DNA of 64,000 bases from Bryobacterales bacterium (GTDB lineage Bacteria; Acidobacteriota; Terriglobia; Bryobacterales; UBA6623). Made by a program: the position numbers and the translations under genes. The DNA lies in contig JAPPMC010000235.1 in the NCBI GenBank assembly GCA_028819235.1, positions 1 to 64,000 of the forward strand, given 5' to 3'. The notes beneath the pieces are model-generated. The model was given only the letters and a program-made list of their open reading frames with translations, did not search any database and was not told the origin of the DNA. The stretch's first letter is position 1. Each line of letters opens with the position of its first letter. This document shows positions 10,323 through 57,254 of the stretch, piece by piece.

Positions 10323-11735
10323 CTATTGGACCAGGTTCCGAGGCTGCCGAAGCACGGTGAACACTGTCCGAGCGTCCACTACGTAGCCCTTGGCTACCCT
10401 TGTGGATAGCCTCCCAGCGGTAGCCACAAACATGACCGGCACACGCTCCATCCCTGTGCTGGCCGGTAACGAGAGGTTGTCCACCGCGGTCGTCCATCTC
10501 GACACGTCGGCGGCACTCGCGGACAGTTTGGCCTCACCCACGAGCAGTCGGTTCCTTTCGATGTCGGGAGTGACCAAGTCTACTTCTCGCTGGCTGCCAC
10601 GCCAATAGCGCCACGCGGGCTCGAACGGTCCTAACTTCGCTACGGGGTGGTCGGCTCGATGGAGGAGCGGCACGGCCGCCCGACATAGCTCCTGCCAAGC
10701 GTACCCTTCCAATTGCCCTCTGTGGCGCTTCCAATACAAGAGTCGGCTCTCTGGTGGCGACGCGTACATCGCCGCGCGATGGGGAGCGATGACGCGGAAC
10801 CACAGGCGCAGAAATGGATCGTCAATCCGGTAAAGGCTCCTCTTGCTGGTCCTTGGATTTGCTCCAAAGGGTGTTTCGCGCCGCACCAGCCCCATCTCGA
10901 CCAGAGATTTCAGAGGTCGCGACAGGCTGGATGCAGCACGTCCAAGGCGACCGCCGACTTCACTAACTCGATGCGCTCCCGCCCCAATGACATCCAGCAG
11001 CGGGCGCAACGCGGACGCAGGCGGAATCTCCTGTTCCAGTAGACGCGCCGGCTCTTCGTGTAAGGGACCGGCCGGATCGAGAACCAGCGAATCCACGGCG
11101 GCTTCAAGGTCGCTACCGAAGGGCAGTGCCAATTCCCAATACCGTGGCATTCCACCCCACAGTGCATAGAGGCTGACCAGCCAGCGCCAGTCGTCAGAGC
11201 CAAACGCATCGGAAAGATGCCCGGGCTGAAGGGGCCGAAGCGCGAACGCTTGGTCAGCCCTGCCGTAGAGAGGGGCGCTGGCATCCAGCACAGCGCCGTG
11301 CATCATGCGCTGGCTCGAGCCGCTGACCACAACTCCGAGTTGCCTGGAAGGGTGGTCGATCCAATTCTGGATGTCACTGGCCAATCCGGGGTCTGCGGCG
11401 ATCAGATAGGGCAACTCGTCAATCACGAACGGTCCGGGCCACCCGACACGGTCAGCCTCTTCGGAGAGGCGAGTCAGGAAGGCTCGCCAATTCGGATACT
11501 CCACATCGGCAAAGTTCGGGAATCGCTCAGCGACAGCGGATGCAAGGTAGCGCCGCTGGACCGACGGGACTGACAGGTCGGCGACGGTGTAGAGGCCGTT
11601 ATGTCTTCCGGACCACTCGACCAAGAGGCGGGACTTGCCCACGCGGCGGCGGCCCCAGATAACAGAAAAGGACCCGGGGCGGGCCAGTGCACGGTCCAAG
11701 CGTCCCATTTCTTCGCGCCGGTCGACGAATCTCAC
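10323..11735 (-). CDS. AAA-type ATPase with DUF234 nuclease-like C-terminus
   Basis: A 470-residue protein with Walker A GRRRVGKS at residues ~29-36 and a Walker B strand ending FVIDELPYL near residue 125, followed by VVSGSSQRMM (sensor 1). The middle (residues ~240-300) is a winged-helix segment (AHRVSEVGGRLGRAASSLSRPL). The C-terminal ~100 residues carry the DUF234 arrangement SQREVDLV...LLVGEAKLS, which resembles a PD-(D/E)xK nuclease core. This architecture is the archaeal-type ATPase family, common in archaea and scattered in bacteria. Its role is unclear; mobile-element or defence functions have been suggested for relatives. The GTG start is preceded by two inverted repeats. The gene is solitary between gaps, which fits acquisition by transfer. 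Confidence 0.85.
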   Translation of the reverse strand: MRFVDRREEMGRLDRALARPGSFSVIWGRRRVGKSRLLVEWSGRHNGLYTVADLSVPSVQRRYLASAVAERFPNFADVEYPNWRAFLTRLSEEADRVGWPGPFVIDELPYLIAADPGLASDIQNWIDHPSRQLGVVVSGSSQRMMHGAVLDASAPLYGRADQAFALRPLQPGHLSDAFGSDDWRWLVSLYALWGGMPRYWELALPFGSDLEAAVDSLVLDPAGPLHEEPARLLEQEIPPASALRPLLDVIGAGAHRVSEVGGRLGRAASSLSRPLKSLVEMGLVRRETPFGANPRTSKRSLYRIDDPFLRLWFRVIAPHRAAMYASPPESRLLYWKRHRGQLEGYAWQELCRAAVPLLHRADHPVAKLGPFEPAWRYWRGSQREVDLVTPDIERNRLLVGEAKLSASAADVSRWTTAVDNLSLPASTGMERVPVMFVATAGRLSTRVAKGYVVDARTVFTVLRQPRNLVQ

Positions 11736-44520: not shown

Positions 44521-44597
44521 GCGCTCGTAGCTCAGCTGGATAGAGCGTCTGGCTACGGACCAGAAGGCCGGGGGTTCGAATCCTCCCGAGCGCGCCA
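44521..44597 (+). tRNA. tRNA-Arg (ACG)
   Basis: A 77-base cloverleaf with encoded CCA. The acceptor stem is GCGCTCG/CGAGCGC with discriminator G. The anticodon arm is TCTGG-CTACGGA-CCAGA, giving anticodon ACG (inosine-modified, reading CGU/CGC/CGA). The T arm holds GGGGG-TTCGAAT-CCTCC. Confidence 0.95.
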
Positions 44598-49547: not shown

Positions 49548-49577
49548 TTGCGGCAAGACGGTCCCGTGTTGTATAGT
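49548..49577 (+). promoter_or_regulatory. Sigma-70-type promoter of the winged-helix gene
   Basis: TTGCGG (49548-49553) and TATAGT (49572-49577) are separated by 18 bases. The ATG follows 6 bases after TATAGT, so transcription should begin at the start codon and the mRNA would be leaderless. Confidence 0.5.
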
Positions 49578-49583
49578 TTCAAT

Positions 49584-50054
49584 ATGGAAATCTCGCTGAA
49601 CAAGGCGCTAGTGGATCGTTTTGAGGAGGCGGTCGAGCGGCGATACAAAAGCGACAAGGAGACCGTGCGCGCCATGCGGACGCTCCTTGCGAGGTATGAA
49701 CAAGGTGACTTGGCCGCGGACTTGGTCGGCATCTTGGGACGACAGGAGGAGGAGAGACAGACGCCGACCCAGCGGACGCGCAAGGGTCGTCCCGGAACAC
49801 TTAGGAGCAAGGTGATCGAGGCCTGTGAGAGCCAGCCCGAGAAACAGTGGACTACCCGGGAGATGGTAGCTCATCTCGAGGGCACGGGTTTTCCTGTCAG
49901 TGAACAGACAGCCCGAAGCGTTTCCGCGTGCCTCTGGAAGCTCTCTCGCGAGAAGAAGCTCCTAGTCGTCCACCAAGGGACGGGAAGCAGGCCGAGTGTC
50001 TACCGGTGGAAGTGCGAGGAAGGTGATCCCAAGGGGCCAGAGGCGGCAGCATGA
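49584..50054 (+). CDS. Putative winged-helix DNA-binding protein
   Basis: 156 residues, not a family I can name. The first ~60 residues are helical and charged (NKALVDRFEEAVERRYKSDK; LLARYEQGDLAADL). A basic linker (QRTRKGRPG) precedes a winged-helix-like domain: EKQWTTREMVAHLEGTGF, SEQTARSVSACLWKLSREKK and VVHQGTGSRPSVYRWK (wing). It has a promoter but no ribosome site. A HicA-like toxin gene follows 83 bases later on the same strand, so it may regulate that gene or serve as its antitoxin, which is inference from position only. Confidence 0.65.
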   Translation: MEISLNKALVDRFEEAVERRYKSDKETVRAMRTLLARYEQGDLAADLVGILGRQEEERQTPTQRTRKGRPGTLRSKVIEACESQPEKQWTTREMVAHLEGTGFPVSEQTARSVSACLWKLSREKKLLVVHQGTGSRPSVYRWKCEEGDPKGPEAAA

Positions 50055-50137
50055 CTGGGCCGACAGGGTAGGAGTACATACGCCGTGCCGTCATCTTCGC
50101 AGGGATCCTCAGGTCAGCGTCGTCGGAGCAGAGTGCC

Positions 50138-50347
50138 GTGAAGGTCCGCCAAGTTGAGCGCATCTTGTCCAAGCACGGATTCGTCAGAGACCGGCAGACA
50201 GGGGGACACAGCCAGTACAAACGTTCGGTGAAGAACGGGGGCACGAAGCTTGTGACGTTGGTGGGACGAAGAGGCGACGACATCCCCAACGGTACGTTGG
50301 CAAACATCCGCCGACAATCCGGCCTTCCGAGGCGTTTGTTCCGCTAG
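50138..50347 (+). CDS. hicA: HicA-type mRNA interferase toxin
   Basis: 69 residues from a GTG with GGAG 9 bases upstream. It fits the HicA/YcfA double-stranded-RNA-binding-like toxin: KVRQVERILSKHGFVRDRQ, the catalytic His in GGHSQYKRS, then KLVTLVGRRGDDIPNGTLAN and IRRQSGL. HicA enzymes cut mRNA and are normally held by HicB encoded immediately downstream on the same strand. Here the neighbouring HicB-like gene faces it from the other strand, and the two stop codons share CTAG. Confidence 0.88.
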   Translation: MKVRQVERILSKHGFVRDRQTGGHSQYKRSVKNGGTKLVTLVGRRGDDIPNGTLANIRRQSGLPRRLFR

Positions 50348-50655
50348 GCGTACTTCAATCGCGGGACGGAGATTGGGAATACTTCCGACTGCCTGCCGTT
50401 AAGGCGGTTCCATGGCAACGATGCCAAGAAGGCGAGCTTGGCACGGACGTACCAAGGGGTCTTGCGATTGAGGAGTCGGTGCTGGTCCTCGACGGGAACT
50501 TCGGCAACTGCGCTTAGATGCATCTCTACGGCCAACTTGAGAAAGTCCTTGACTTCCTCCAGAGATCGCCCGTAAACAGAAATATCGAAGTCAATGCAGA
50601 TGGCCTGCCATGCGCTTCCGCGCCCATATGCATAACATCGAAGCGTTAGGGTCAT
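50344..50655 (-). CDS. HicB-like protein, convergent with HicA
   Basis: 103 residues. The first 60 look like a partial RNase-H-type HicB/DUF1902 domain: a strand pair around SAWQAICIDFDISVYGRS and the helix LEEVKDFLKLAVEMHLSAV, matching the usual D-L-E-E-A-x-x-N-x-x-E-A-I-x-x-x-L region. The rest (RKTPWYVRAKLAFLASLPW) is hydrophobic and unlike the DNA-binding tail of typical HicB. It may be an antitoxin for the convergent HicA or a stand-alone relative. Confidence 0.65.
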   Translation of the reverse strand: MTLTLRCYAYGRGSAWQAICIDFDISVYGRSLEEVKDFLKLAVEMHLSAVAEVPVEDQHRLLNRKTPWYVRAKLAFLASLPWNRLNGRQSEVFPISVPRLKYA

Positions 50656-51356: not shown

Positions 51357-51536
51357 TGGCCAATTGCCACTGACAATCCTTACGGAGCTCCCGATCGTGA
51401 CGCGCTGGGCGATCTTCGCCTCGTAGTTGGTGTGTGTGTGCTCGGTGATTTCGACGTCACTCCTCACTTCGGCACCAGCCCCGATACGGACTCCTGGCCA
51501 GATCCGCACGAGGTCGCCGATTGTACTGCGCTGGAG
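51357..51536 (-). pseudogene. Fragment of a left-handed beta-helix (hexapeptide repeat) protein
   Basis: About 60 residues read RSTIGDLVRIWPGVRIGAG, AEVRSDVEITEHTHTNYEA, then QRVTIGSSVRIVS: three or four hexapeptide turns as in nucleotide-sugar pyrophosphorylases or acyltransferases. Both ends run into unrelated sequence, and the N-terminal side abuts the transposase relic, so it is a remnant cut by rearrangement or insertion. Confidence 0.45.
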
Positions 51537-51537
51537 G

Positions 51538-52575
51538 ATGGTTCGGGAGGGGCTGCGCCTGACGGGCTGGCAAGAGGGCGAGCAGCTGCGGGCGCGCTGC
51601 GACAGCTACGTGGTCGAGACCAACGTGGTGTACCCCACGGACTACCGGCTGTTGCGGGACGCGCTGGGGGGCATGGTGCGGGAAGCCGCCTTCCAGTGCG
51701 GCGCTGCCCGCGTGGCTGGCTGGAGGCAGGAGGCGCACTGGAAGGGGAAGGTCGAGAAGCGCTACCGGCAACTGAGGCGGGACTATCGCCGCAAGAACCG
51801 CGACGTGCTCGTGAAGGGCCTGCTGCAAGTGGCCCGGTAGGTGGGCCGGCGGGTGCAAGAGTCGCGGCAGCGGCTGGTCGCGGCGGGACTGGGGAACGCC
51901 AACCTTCAGAATCTGGACCAGCTGGTCGGGCACGCCGAGAGGCAGGCGGACCAACTGCGGCGGCGGCTGTTGAAGGGCGAGAAGATTCCGCACGAGGAGA
52001 AGGTGTTCTCGATCCACGAGGATGACACGCGCTGGGTGTCGAAGGGCAAGGCGGGCCAGCCGGTGGAGCTGGGAGTGCCGGTGGCGATCGCGGAGTGCGG
52101 GCAGCAGTTCGTGCTGGGCTGGCGCTGCCTGTGGAGCGAGCAGGACGCGGAAGTGACCACGGAGCTGGCGGAAGCGCTGAAGCAGGAGTGGCCGGAGGTC
52201 GGCACGCTCAGTTTCGACAAGGGGTCCTCGAGCCGAGCGAACATCGACGCCTTGGGGAAGGTGGTGGAGCAGGCAGTGCTGCCGAAGCGGGGGAAGCTGT
52301 CGAAAGCGGATCAGGCGCGCGAATCGCAGGCTTGGTTTGGGGAAGCGCGCCGGGCGCACGCCGGGGTGGAATCGGCGGCGAACAATCTGGAGCAGGGCGG
52401 GTTGGACCGGGTGAGAGAGAAGGGGAAGGAACGATTTGAATAGGTGGTGGCGCGCGGGATGCTGGCGGCGAACGTGCATCGGATCGGAGTGTTGATCCGG
52501 GCAGGAAAGCGTGCGAAGTTGCAACACAACGAGGCAGTCCGGCGGGGGCTGAGTCGCCATCGCCGGGCGGCCTGA
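51538..52575 (+). pseudogene. ISNCY-type transposase relic with two in-frame TAG stops
   Basis: One continuous frame matches the C-terminal two-thirds of an ISNCY-type transposase: RCDSYVVETNVVYPTDYRLL, RRRLLKGEKIPHEEKVFSI, GKAGQPVELGVPVAI, QAWFGEARRAHAGVESAAN and MLAANVHRIGVL. It is interrupted by TAG at 51838-51840 and at 52441-52443, with no frameshift. The first ~130 residues of the family are missing. I could not find terminal repeats. The element looks inactive. Confidence 0.75.
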
Positions 52576-54854: not shown

Positions 54855-57254
54855 ATGAACGCCCCCGAGATCGAATACAACACCTCACACTTGCGCCTTG
54901 AGGAGATCTTGCGGACCATCGACCGGCCCGGGGACTTCGTGGCCTCCGGCAGGCTCGAATCGATCCCTCCGCAAGTGAGGGTGAAGGGCGTGGGGAAGAT
55001 TGCCTACCCGATCCTCGAGCGGCAAGTAGAGGACTTGATCTCCGTGGCCGAGAGAGCCCCGTACGGCCGGGGGCCTGACACCATCACCGACAGGTCCGTA
55101 AGGGACTGCTGGCAGATCGACGCCAACGACCTTGAGCTGAGCGGCACCAGATGGGACGCGACGCTGAGCAGAATCTTGGACCTTGTGGCGAAGGGCTTGG
55201 GACTTCCGAGGAGCGGCATCAACGCAAAGCCGTACAAACTGCTGGTTTACGAAGAGGGCGGTTTCTTCGCCGAGCACCGCGACACCGAGAAGGAAGACCG
55301 GATGGTCGCAACGCTAGTGGTATCCCTGCCGGTCGAAGGCGAGGGCGGAGAAATAGTCGTGAGACACGGGCAGGAGGAGGTCACCATCGACCTGTGCGTC
55401 GACGATCTGGGCGAACTGCCTTACGCAGTCTTCTACGCCGACTGCCGGCACCGAACGAAGAGGGTCGTCAAGGGCAACAGGGCCTCGCTGGTCTTCAACG
55501 TGATCGCGGAACAGGGTGCCCCGAAGTCGACCCCCGACTATTCACGGCAAGTCCGCGAAACGGCGGAGGTCCTCCAAGCGTTGGCAGAGCAGCAGTGGGA
55601 AGAGGGCGATCCGAGCAAGCTGGTTTGGCTATTGGACCACGCCTACAGCCTGGACGGGCTCTCCTTCGAAGGGCTCAAGGGCGTTGACCGGGCACTTGCG
55701 GAAACACTGAGATCGGCAGCCCGGCGGAAGGGATGCGAAGTATGCCTTGGCACGCTTCGGATCCGGGAGGAAGGAGCCAGTGAATCGGACTACCACGACC
55801 ACGGCAAACGCGAGAGGGACGTCACCGATGAGGACTACTCGATCTTCGAGATGTACGACGTGACCGCTTGGTTCACTCCGAAGACCTGCGGGGGCAGCGG
55901 GCTGCTAGCCGGAGGCACTCAGATTCCGGTCGAAGATGGGGAAGCCCTGCCTCGGGGCGCCTTGGACGGCTTGGAGCCATACCGCAAGACCCTGCTGGAA
56001 GCCACGGGAAATTCCGGCGTCACGCTCAGTCGTATCTACCAAGTGGCAGCAATCACAGTGTGGCCGCGAGCCCGGACCTTCGACATCCTCGCGGGCCGAC
56101 GAATACAAGACGCCGCCAGCTTCGCCCTTCGGAAATTGGAGCGCCACTCCGATCCGAGCGAGCGGCGGATCATGGCAGCGGATTATGTGAGCCGACTGAT
56201 CGAAGCGTGGCACGCCGCAGACCGGGCGATCATCTCCCGCTCCGATTCCATCATGGACGGAAAGGGCGCTGCCGTGCGAAGGGCGCTGAAGCTGCTGTCC
56301 ACCGCCGGCGATCCGGCCCTCACGGCACGATTCCTGAATGTAGTTGGGCGGCGGGACTACCACCAAGACCTGAATGAGCCCCTTGTCGCCGCTCTGCGCA
56401 CGATCCGGCCCGAAGACCTATCAGAATTCCTCAGAAACTTCTTTCGGGCCCACGCGAACCACGGGCTTGAAGGCCCGTTCGGACTGCTGGCATGCCTCGC
56501 TCAAGCGTCGGGGTTTGAGGCGAACACTGTTCGCTGGAACGTCCTTCGCCGAGAAGCGTCCACAGCCTACCGGCGCGTGAACTCTCGGCTGAAGGAGATC
56601 GCCGAGCACCCGCAGCCGGCTTGGTGGGATGACCTTGTGCTCGACGGCGGCGCGATCTTCGCACTGCTGTGGGCGGGACAACTGCTGGGCCTGCGCCAAG
56701 AGACAGACCACACAGCGGCACTTGTGCGGAAACTGAGCCATCACGCGAACCCTTGCCGGGATGTGCCGAAGGCCCTCAGAAGGCTGCGCCCCGCTTCAGT
56801 CGAGGAAGGGGACTCGGCTGCGCAGTTGATGCTGTGGCAGCACTCGGCCGACCACTTGCTAGCCCGAAGCTCCGTTCCGCCGCCCGGCCCGGACAACTGG
56901 TCAACAGAGGCCCCGGGAGGGTGCGACTGCGCAGAATGCAAGAGACTCGCCTCGTTCTGCAAGTCCGCGACCGAGCGCGTCGTGCGCTTCAAGCGACCTT
57001 GGGATGTGCGCTCCCACTTGGAGGACGTTATCGGGTGGGAGTCGGTCTTTATCGACTGCAAGACCGAACAACAGGGAGTGTCACAGACCTTGGTCTGCAC
57101 GAAGACGGACGAGGTGCACAAAAAGCGAGAGAACCGGTACACGGGCGACATGGAAGCCATGAGGATGCTGGTGGAATGCGTGCCGACGGAGGCGACGGAC
57201 GAGTCTCGAGACGTCTTGCGTCGGCTGCGCCGAGCCCTGGCCCTGTCTGCCTGA
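54855..57254 (+). CDS. Large 2-oxoglutarate/Fe(II)-dependent oxygenase-like protein
   Basis: 799 residues. The N-terminal ~215 form a prolyl-hydroxylase-like double-stranded beta-helix: LLVYEEGGFFAEHRDTEKED supplies the H-x-D iron ligands, GEGGEIVVRH a strand, and YADCRHRTKRVVKGNRASLV the distal His and the Arg that binds 2-oxoglutarate. About 500 residues of mostly helical, unrecognised sequence follow. The C-terminus has a Cys-x-x-Cys segment (GGCDCAECKRLASFCKS) and WDVRSHLEDVIG. This architecture reminds me of large fungal proteins with a similar oxygenase head. It may hydroxylate a protein; the target is unknown. The start has GAGGG 9 bases upstream. Confidence 0.82.
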   Translation: MNAPEIEYNTSHLRLEEILRTIDRPGDFVASGRLESIPPQVRVKGVGKIAYPILERQVEDLISVAERAPYGRGPDTITDRSVRDCWQIDANDLELSGTRWDATLSRILDLVAKGLGLPRSGINAKPYKLLVYEEGGFFAEHRDTEKEDRMVATLVVSLPVEGEGGEIVVRHGQEEVTIDLCVDDLGELPYAVFYADCRHRTKRVVKGNRASLVFNVIAEQGAPKSTPDYSRQVRETAEVLQALAEQQWEEGDPSKLVWLLDHAYSLDGLSFEGLKGVDRALAETLRSAARRKGCEVCLGTLRIREEGASESDYHDHGKRERDVTDEDYSIFEMYDVTAWFTPKTCGGSGLLAGGTQIPVEDGEALPRGALDGLEPYRKTLLEATGNSGVTLSRIYQVAAITVWPRARTFDILAGRRIQDAASFALRKLERHSDPSERRIMAADYVSRLIEAWHAADRAIISRSDSIMDGKGAAVRRALKLLSTAGDPALTARFLNVVGRRDYHQDLNEPLVAALRTIRPEDLSEFLRNFFRAHANHGLEGPFGLLACLAQASGFEANTVRWNVLRREASTAYRRVNSRLKEIAEHPQPAWWDDLVLDGGAIFALLWAGQLLGLRQETDHTAALVRKLSHHANPCRDVPKALRRLRPASVEEGDSAAQLMLWQHSADHLLARSSVPPPGPDNWSTEAPGGCDCAECKRLASFCKSATERVVRFKRPWDVRSHLEDVIGWESVFIDCKTEQQGVSQTLVCTKTDEVHKKRENRYTGDMEAMRMLVECVPTEATDESRDVLRRLRRALALSA

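Follow-up and report, generated by a model that had tools for sequence, protein, structure and literature searches.

The hicA and hicB genes usually lie in a same-strand bicistronic operon, as in classes 1–10 of the survey by Gerdes (2024), and the 14 HicA contexts set out in the available text of that survey are all operons or gene fusions (PMC10865869). In the window, by which we mean the whole 64,000-nucleotide stretch of Bryobacterales DNA analysed here, a hicA gene is met head-on by a HicB-like gene and is preceded by a winged-helix-like gene (Table 1). What would hold such a toxin gene in check if it does not share an operon with its antitoxin? The initial annotation took hicA before hicB as the norm; this order is known, but it is not the only one, as the available text of the survey counts same-strand hicBA among the common classes too (PMC10865869). 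Since the window pair is convergent rather than a same-strand operon, it is a variant of HicAB and not an ordinary member. We consider it probable that the pair belongs to a convergent form of HicAB in which hicA is controlled by a guide in type I-C relatives, with the winged-helix gene as the candidate controller in the window.

Table 1. Features of the head-on hicA/hicB cassette and its surroundings in the window.
Feature	Position	Strand	Description
Winged-helix-like gene	49584-50054	+	156 aa; ATG at 49584, stop codon ends at 50054
TATAGT, -10-like box	49572-49577	+	Ends 6 nt before the winged-helix ATG; possible leaderless promoter
hicA, predicted toxin gene	50138-50347	+	GTG start; 69 aa; Pfam PF07927 (HicA_toxin)
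HicB-fold gene, predicted antitoxin	50344-50655	-	103 aa; HicB matches of the AlphaFold model in VIA-align; 23-locus family
CTAG common to the hicA and hicB stop codons	50344-50347	.	
ISNCY-family transposase remnant	51427-52440	+	Two ORFs; NCBIfam NF033593

The three genes lie where the initial annotation had placed them, and the sharing of one CTAG by the two stop codons was confirmed. All three frames (3/3) are open over their full length, and the start at 49548 that can be given to the winged-helix-like gene is an in-frame TTG upstream of its ATG. The window HicA scores 51.7 bits for PF07927 (cut-off 27) and carries GGH, a form of the G(S/G)H motif that is kept in 11/11 intact convergent HicA proteins and which we take to hold the catalytic histidine. 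PADLOC returned no match for hicA or hicB of the window, and tblastn with type I-C Cas proteins located no cas gene in it. The suggestion of a mobile-like region is supported by the ISNCY-family transposase remnant, whose two pieces match NF033593 at 4.5e-15 and 1.8e-54, both under the cut-off of 325 bits. Further out, a tRNA-Arg gene lies 5 kb upstream of the cassette (44521-44597), and a large gene 4 kb from it (54855-57251, + strand), which encodes a 2OG-Fe(II) oxygenase domain, matches the PADLOC CRISPR-associated '2OG' model (3.4e-07).

The partner gene owes its proposed identity to predicted fold. Neither Pfam nor NCBIfam contains a HicB model that matched the protein, and no sequence match was found in the PDB; the description as HicB-like is thus without sequence-family support, yet HicB structures are the best VIA-align matches of its predicted model. 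The AlphaFold model was built from 15 sequences and is of middling confidence (mean pLDDT 75). VIA-align placed it closest to 6g1c (Z 8.9; the HicB N-terminal domain), 6g1n (Z 8.7), and 4p78 (Z 7.8), and the top nine rows were all HicB, toxin-antitoxin, or small HicB-like entries; Foldseek alone gave weak matches (best E 0.22, none below 0.2). The protein has no recognised DNA-binding domain. It had no match in plasmids, and its sole phage match was in Pseudomonas phage Medea1 (36%), where no hicA is annotated in the matching region.

The head-on arrangement recurs well beyond the window. We searched sets of 300 relatives, 396 genomes of the phylum, 18 of the family, 18 of another order, and 293 and 390 genomes of the orders of two carriers (at least 21 genomes common to both), together with the genomes of the named loci and a scan of genome contigs. 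Strong matches define the HicB family at 23 distinct cellular loci, weak profile matches (E above 1e-12) being left out, and the carriers known by name are Bryobacterales, other Acidobacteria, Vicinamibacterales, Gammaproteobacteria, Pseudomonadales, and a Spirochaetia bacterium. A convergent hicA is present in 18/23 loci: it is intact in 11 (the window, C56, L057, L058, L059, L060, L114, L063, L069, L071, and L143) and broken or a remnant in seven (G007, G002, G003, L062, L064, L067, and L068), and no hicA was detected in the remaining five (G292, L119, L121, L120, and L072). Within the stretches searched, hicA lay on the same strand in 0/23 loci. In seven of the 11 intact pairs the two genes share exactly 4 nt (CTAG, TTAG, TTAA, or CTAA); others overlap by 29 and 35 nt, and two near-identical loci have a 104-nt gap. 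PF07927 was also matched by 6/6 further convergent HicA proteins tested. A second convergent pair lies in the genome of the window itself (G000:C56; 48% and 57% identity), and this pair, along with the recurrence in other phyla, argues that the head-on pair is not a product of chance. The proposal of a convergent antitoxin is therefore well supported as regards a conserved unit, and this conserved head-on variant of HicAB is real.

Loci with weak HicB-profile matches were considered as further family members and rejected; they look like canonical small HicB. In ten of them hicA is on the same strand with hicB first (L073, L074, L075, L081, L090, L093, L095, L103, L104, and L105), as it is in the broken locus L108, while L025 has hicA first on the same strand. 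The HicB-like gene of L024 is more distant and has no hicA. The nearest relatives on viral contigs (L099 and L100, from IMG/VR) carry hicB and then hicA on one strand, and the tree splits these two from the head-on family with support of 100/99. This tandem outgroup on viral contigs is a possible source of the family. The tree needs 6 state changes and has many open forks, and it gives no order for the CRISPR-embedded and the free state.

Among the known classes the pair comes closest to Gerdes Class 2, that is, hicBA with a small HicB of 63–103 codons that lacks a DNA-binding domain (PMC10865869). Like Class 2, the window has a HicA family toxin and a HicB without a recognised DNA-binding domain whose 103 aa lie at the top of the 63–103 range, and the viral relatives L099 and L100 share the tandem hicB-hicA order. 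Unlike Class 2, the window genes are convergent with overlapping stops, an arrangement that none of the 14 classes shows in the available text of the survey (PMC10865869).

Several signs are consistent with a toxin and its antitoxin. Across the 11 intact pairs, the distances among HicA proteins are correlated with those among HicB proteins (r 0.67; Mantel 0 of 5000), and every locus with intact hicA also has intact hicB (11/11). Conversely, intact hicB accompanies a broken or absent hicA at 9 loci, both genes are broken at one (G002), and at two (L119 and L072) hicB is broken with hicA absent. Loss of hicA with retention of hicB is the pattern expected if hicA is the harmful partner, although this asymmetry is biased because the loci were gathered with HicB as query and any hicA without hicB would be missed. 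HicA is a predicted mRNA interferase and would be toxic; HicB most likely neutralises it by direct binding, as judged from the fold, the conservation, and the decay pattern. Alternatively, the HicB-fold gene might not be the antitoxin of this HicA, the convergence being an old accident and hicA being neutralised otherwise or inert. The lack of a Pfam HicB match and the presence of hicB without any detected hicA in 5/23 loci would suit such a reading, but the HicB fold of the predicted model, the junction conserved across phyla, the correlated distances, and the fact that no locus was seen with intact hicA and broken hicB all speak against it, and we hold it to be highly unlikely.

It could also be that the window copy is a relic in decay, close to the remains of a transposase. 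The ISNCY remnant adjoins the cassette, hicA is broken in 7/23 loci of the family, and the G007 copy is cut at contig ends with an insertion-sequence-like end. All three window frames are nevertheless open at full length, and hicB pairs elsewhere have dN well below dS (0.039/0.199 and 0.105/0.515; two further pairs give 0.105/0.532 and 0.063/0.353), which indicates slow protein change. We thus regard a relic as improbable. In G007 itself, hicA is split between two contig ends, one on C105 (L128) and one on C66 (L129), and both ends carry a common inward-reading sequence with a short repeated flank, the kind of trace expected from an insertion sequence.

If the window pair is a functional module, the gene upstream of hicA deserves attention. 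Its product is assigned to the winged-helix proteins on weak grounds, with 23.6 bits for Pfam HTH_32 (cut-off 33.7) and a low-confidence model whose matches to winged-helix folds are weak. The initial annotation suggested a leaderless promoter for this gene, which is plausible in that 3/4 of the homologues, the window included, have a TAnnnT box whose end lies 6 nt ahead of the ATG, but a consensus promoter scanner reported no promoter at the box. Homologues were found in 7/150 relatives at E 0.01, of which 4 are strong when the window's own genome is counted. The same annotation proposed a three-part toxin system with a separate regulator, and a search for co-occurrence of the winged-helix gene with HicA gives this weak support. 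The gene precedes hicA in only 2/23 loci, the window and G007, where the adjacent winged-helix and hicA genes share approximately 50% identity and the flanks show no other similarity over the stretches compared; the three genes therefore seem to have travelled together within the clade of the window and G007. At the other 21 loci, including C56 of the same genome, no winged-helix gene was found next to hicA, and the gene occurs without hicA in G010 and G014. Both the winged-helix gene and the HicB-like gene were hence found with HicA in loci other than the window, and the possibility that neither ever was can be set aside.

These observations bear directly on the idea of a true three-part system, in which the winged-helix protein would be a dedicated repressor or a second antitoxin. 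Its conservation next to hicA between otherwise dissimilar flanks favours this idea, but the failure to find it at 21/23 loci, the second copy in the same genome among them, means that it could be a dedicated third component at most in the small clade of the window, and the copies without hicA in G010 and G014 weigh in the same direction; we find such a system rather unlikely. As a controller of hicA in the window, the winged-helix gene is the best candidate, which we infer from its position.

A different kind of control is suggested by the relatives. In six loci (L057, L058, L059, L063, L071, and L143) hicA and hicB are flanked by cas3 and cas5 of a type I-C operon, in the order cas3, hicA, hicB, cas5, cas8c, cas7, cas4, cas1, the carriers being Spirochaetia, Gammaproteobacteria, and Acidobacteriota. 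Pfam and NCBIfam confirmed Cas3, Cas5c, Cas8c/Csd1, Cas7/Csd2, Cas4, and Cas1 for representative genes and tblastn placed the rest; cas1 is present in 5/6 loci, the contig of L059 ending in cas4. CRISPR arrays lie beside all 4 of the type I-C hicAB loci that were scanned for repeats. Fragments of cas5 also flank hicB in L062 and L067, and cas genes are absent from the fetched stretches at 13 of the other 15 loci (L120 and L121 left out). The genome of the window (G000, 98.45% complete) has no type I-C Cas8c (PF09709), and two type I-C loci of its family (G006 and G014) have no hicAB between cas3 and cas5. The array adjoining the Spirochaetia type I-C operon (L123, from 1507) contains more than 80 repeats, and some of its spacers are duplicated.

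The gap between cas3 and hicA in four of these six loci contains a degenerate CRISPR repeat. For this analysis five loci carry second names (L123 is L057, L124 is L058, L125 is L063, L127 is L059, and L126 is L071). The query was the 14-nt end of the CRISPR repeat, taken from the locus's own array for L123, L124, and L125 and from a consensus for L127, whose contig has no array. Matches of 13/14 (L123), 12/14 (L124), 14/14 (L125), and 12/14 (L127) were obtained, and dinucleotide shuffles did as well 0, 5, 0, and 5 times out of 2000, respectively; L126 gave a weak match (10/14; 340 of 2000 shuffles), and the 43-nt gap of L143 held no repeat element. A degenerate repeat-spacer-repeat thus precedes hicA in 4/6 type I-C hicAB loci, in constant orientation and 106–132 nt before the gene. 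Its repeat arm is followed by a spacer of approximately 28 nt and then by a diverged second arm, which has the potential to form a hairpin as real repeats do. In L125, two spacer copies flank an N run and odd low-complexity sequence; they were counted as one, as this is probably a scaffolding artefact. No element was found in the hicB-cas5 gap. In the standalone or decayed loci the best matches upstream of hicA reach 9–11 of 14 without an element, the two 11/14 matches lying on the other strand at approximately -650, and in the window the 899 nt ahead of hicA match the end of the repeat at 9/14 at best.

The spacer of the element matches a site in its own gap. We masked the spacer, required a TTC or TTT PAM, and ignored positions 6, 12, and 18. 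The best own-locus sites scored 13/15 (L124), 14/15 (L125), 13/15 (L127, with TTT), 10/15 (L123), and 8/15 (L126), and shuffles did as well 0, 0, 0, 74, and 1045 times out of 2000, so that the 18-nt match of L123 is modest when taken alone. The four good target sites lie on the opposite strand, 15–57 nt after the cas3 stop. Over the seed (nt 1–5 and 7–11) the match is 10/10 with TTC in L123, L124, and L125, position 6 being mismatched, and 8/10 with a TTT PAM in L127. For each of the four spacers the seed scores highest in the gap of its own locus, and 0/125 distinct array spacers reach the score of the element spacer in those four gaps. The spacer of L123 is palindromic. The target of L127 covers a -35 box that is supported by a sigma-70 scanner, and the same scanner sees no promoter over the target of L125. 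L126 has no seed match with a PAM upstream of the toxin in its own gap, its spacer fitting the gap of L123 (9/10) better than its own (4/10). The Acidobacteriota cas3 of L126 is in two frames (approximately 11290-11312) and the guide in this locus lacks a promoter match; the whole system of L126 may be decaying.

The element has the form of a guide RNA of the CreA type, for which pairing of nt 1–5 and 7–11, a 5'-TTC PAM, and a shared promoter are described in the available text (PMC8501985). It could also recall CreR RNAs, which show partial promoter complementarity in types I-B, I-E, and V-A according to the accessible part of PMC13131331: the element would then autorepress cas5-cas8c-cas7, with hicA and hicB simply occupying a transcribed gap. 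Like CreR, the element of the relatives is repeat-like, matches a promoter in part, and lies inside the cas locus, and the putative promoter is directed to cas5 as well as to hicA. Unlike CreR, the first gene downstream is the toxin gene; the element stands directly before hicA, some 700 nt separate it from cas5, with a gene of opposite orientation in that interval, and the cas3-cas5 gaps of the type I-C loci without hicAB, G006 and G014, lack it (best 10/14 and 9/14; n=2). Its absence from standalone loci fits both the CreR and the CreA readings. We judge autorepression of the cas genes to be quite unlikely as the explanation and prefer control of hicA by a CreA-like guide.

The comparison with CreTA and CrePA is instructive here. 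Like CreTA, the type I-C relatives have two degenerate repeats around a spacer, a TTC PAM, nt 1–5/7–11 pairing, and a target just upstream in a putative promoter, all within the cas locus. Unlike CreTA, the candidate toxin is the HicA protein with its own protein antitoxin and the system is type I-C, whereas the available portions of the CreTA papers concern RNA toxins (PMC8501985, PMC9458426, PMC10097628). In CrePA the toxin CreP is a KilA-N protein (Shu et al. 2025, as cited in the accessible text of PMC12737573 and PMC13131331). Like CrePA, the relatives have a protein toxin that Cascade and a crRNA-like guide appear to repress. Unlike CrePA, this toxin has a HicA domain and no KilA-N match, and the convergent HicB would add a second, protein antitoxin. 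The window copy differs from both CreTA and CrePA in being without a repeat-like guide.

A working model can be drawn from these elements. The window is read as a type II toxin-antitoxin module consisting of HicA and a small HicB-fold antitoxin placed tail to tail. Genes in this position with overlapping stops require a promoter each, and their messages would be antisense at the 3' ends. Because the two genes do not form one operon and HicB lacks a recognised means of repressing DNA, some factor acting upstream of hicA probably keeps its transcription in check. For the type I-C relatives, the most likely controller would be the CreA-like guide, which could pair with the TTC-flanked site in the putative hicA promoter. 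Cascade carrying this guide would silence hicA as long as CRISPR-Cas is healthy, and residual HicA would be bound by HicB, which is transcribed from the other side; were Cascade to fail, hicA transcription would rise. Repression of HicA by Cascade in these relatives is what we infer from sequence. With neither a repeat element nor a PF09709 match, control in the window must come from elsewhere, and the winged-helix gene occupies the place of the guide upstream of hicA.

We lean slightly towards an extended form of this model in which the pair guards the CRISPR system. HicA would be doubly controlled, by Cascade and the CreA-like guide at transcription and by convergent HicB at the protein level, and the loss of Cascade or its inhibition by an anti-CRISPR would free the mRNA interferase. 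The clade of the window would then be a descendant that has escaped and is free of CRISPR, the guide having been replaced by a leaderless winged-helix repressor.

In the literature available to us, in which a passing mention may be overlooked, no description of convergent hicA/hicB or of a CRISPR-embedded HicAB was found. Where the CreTA papers are searchable, the words HicA and I-C are both absent from PMC9458426 and PMC10097628, and I-C is absent from PMC8501985. PMC10779009 was considered as an instance of convergent hicAB and rejected, as the tail-to-tail genes with overlapping stops in its available text are a restriction-modification pair.

The accessible text of a 2025 review asks whether CrePA-like systems exist with other CRISPR types and other cellular targets, and whether toxin-antitoxin systems of other kinds cooperate with CRISPR-Cas (PMC12737573), and that of the Gerdes survey asks how hicAB with a HicB lacking a DNA-binding domain is regulated (PMC10865869). 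Head-on HicAB offers a directly testable answer to both questions, namely outside control: by Cascade and a guide RNA in the type I-C loci, and perhaps by the winged-helix protein where CRISPR is absent. The coupling to CRISPR is the most striking property of the family and belongs to the relatives rather than to the window. Head-on HicAB also allows naturally occurring CRISPR-coupled and uncoupled forms to be compared within one toxin-antitoxin family.
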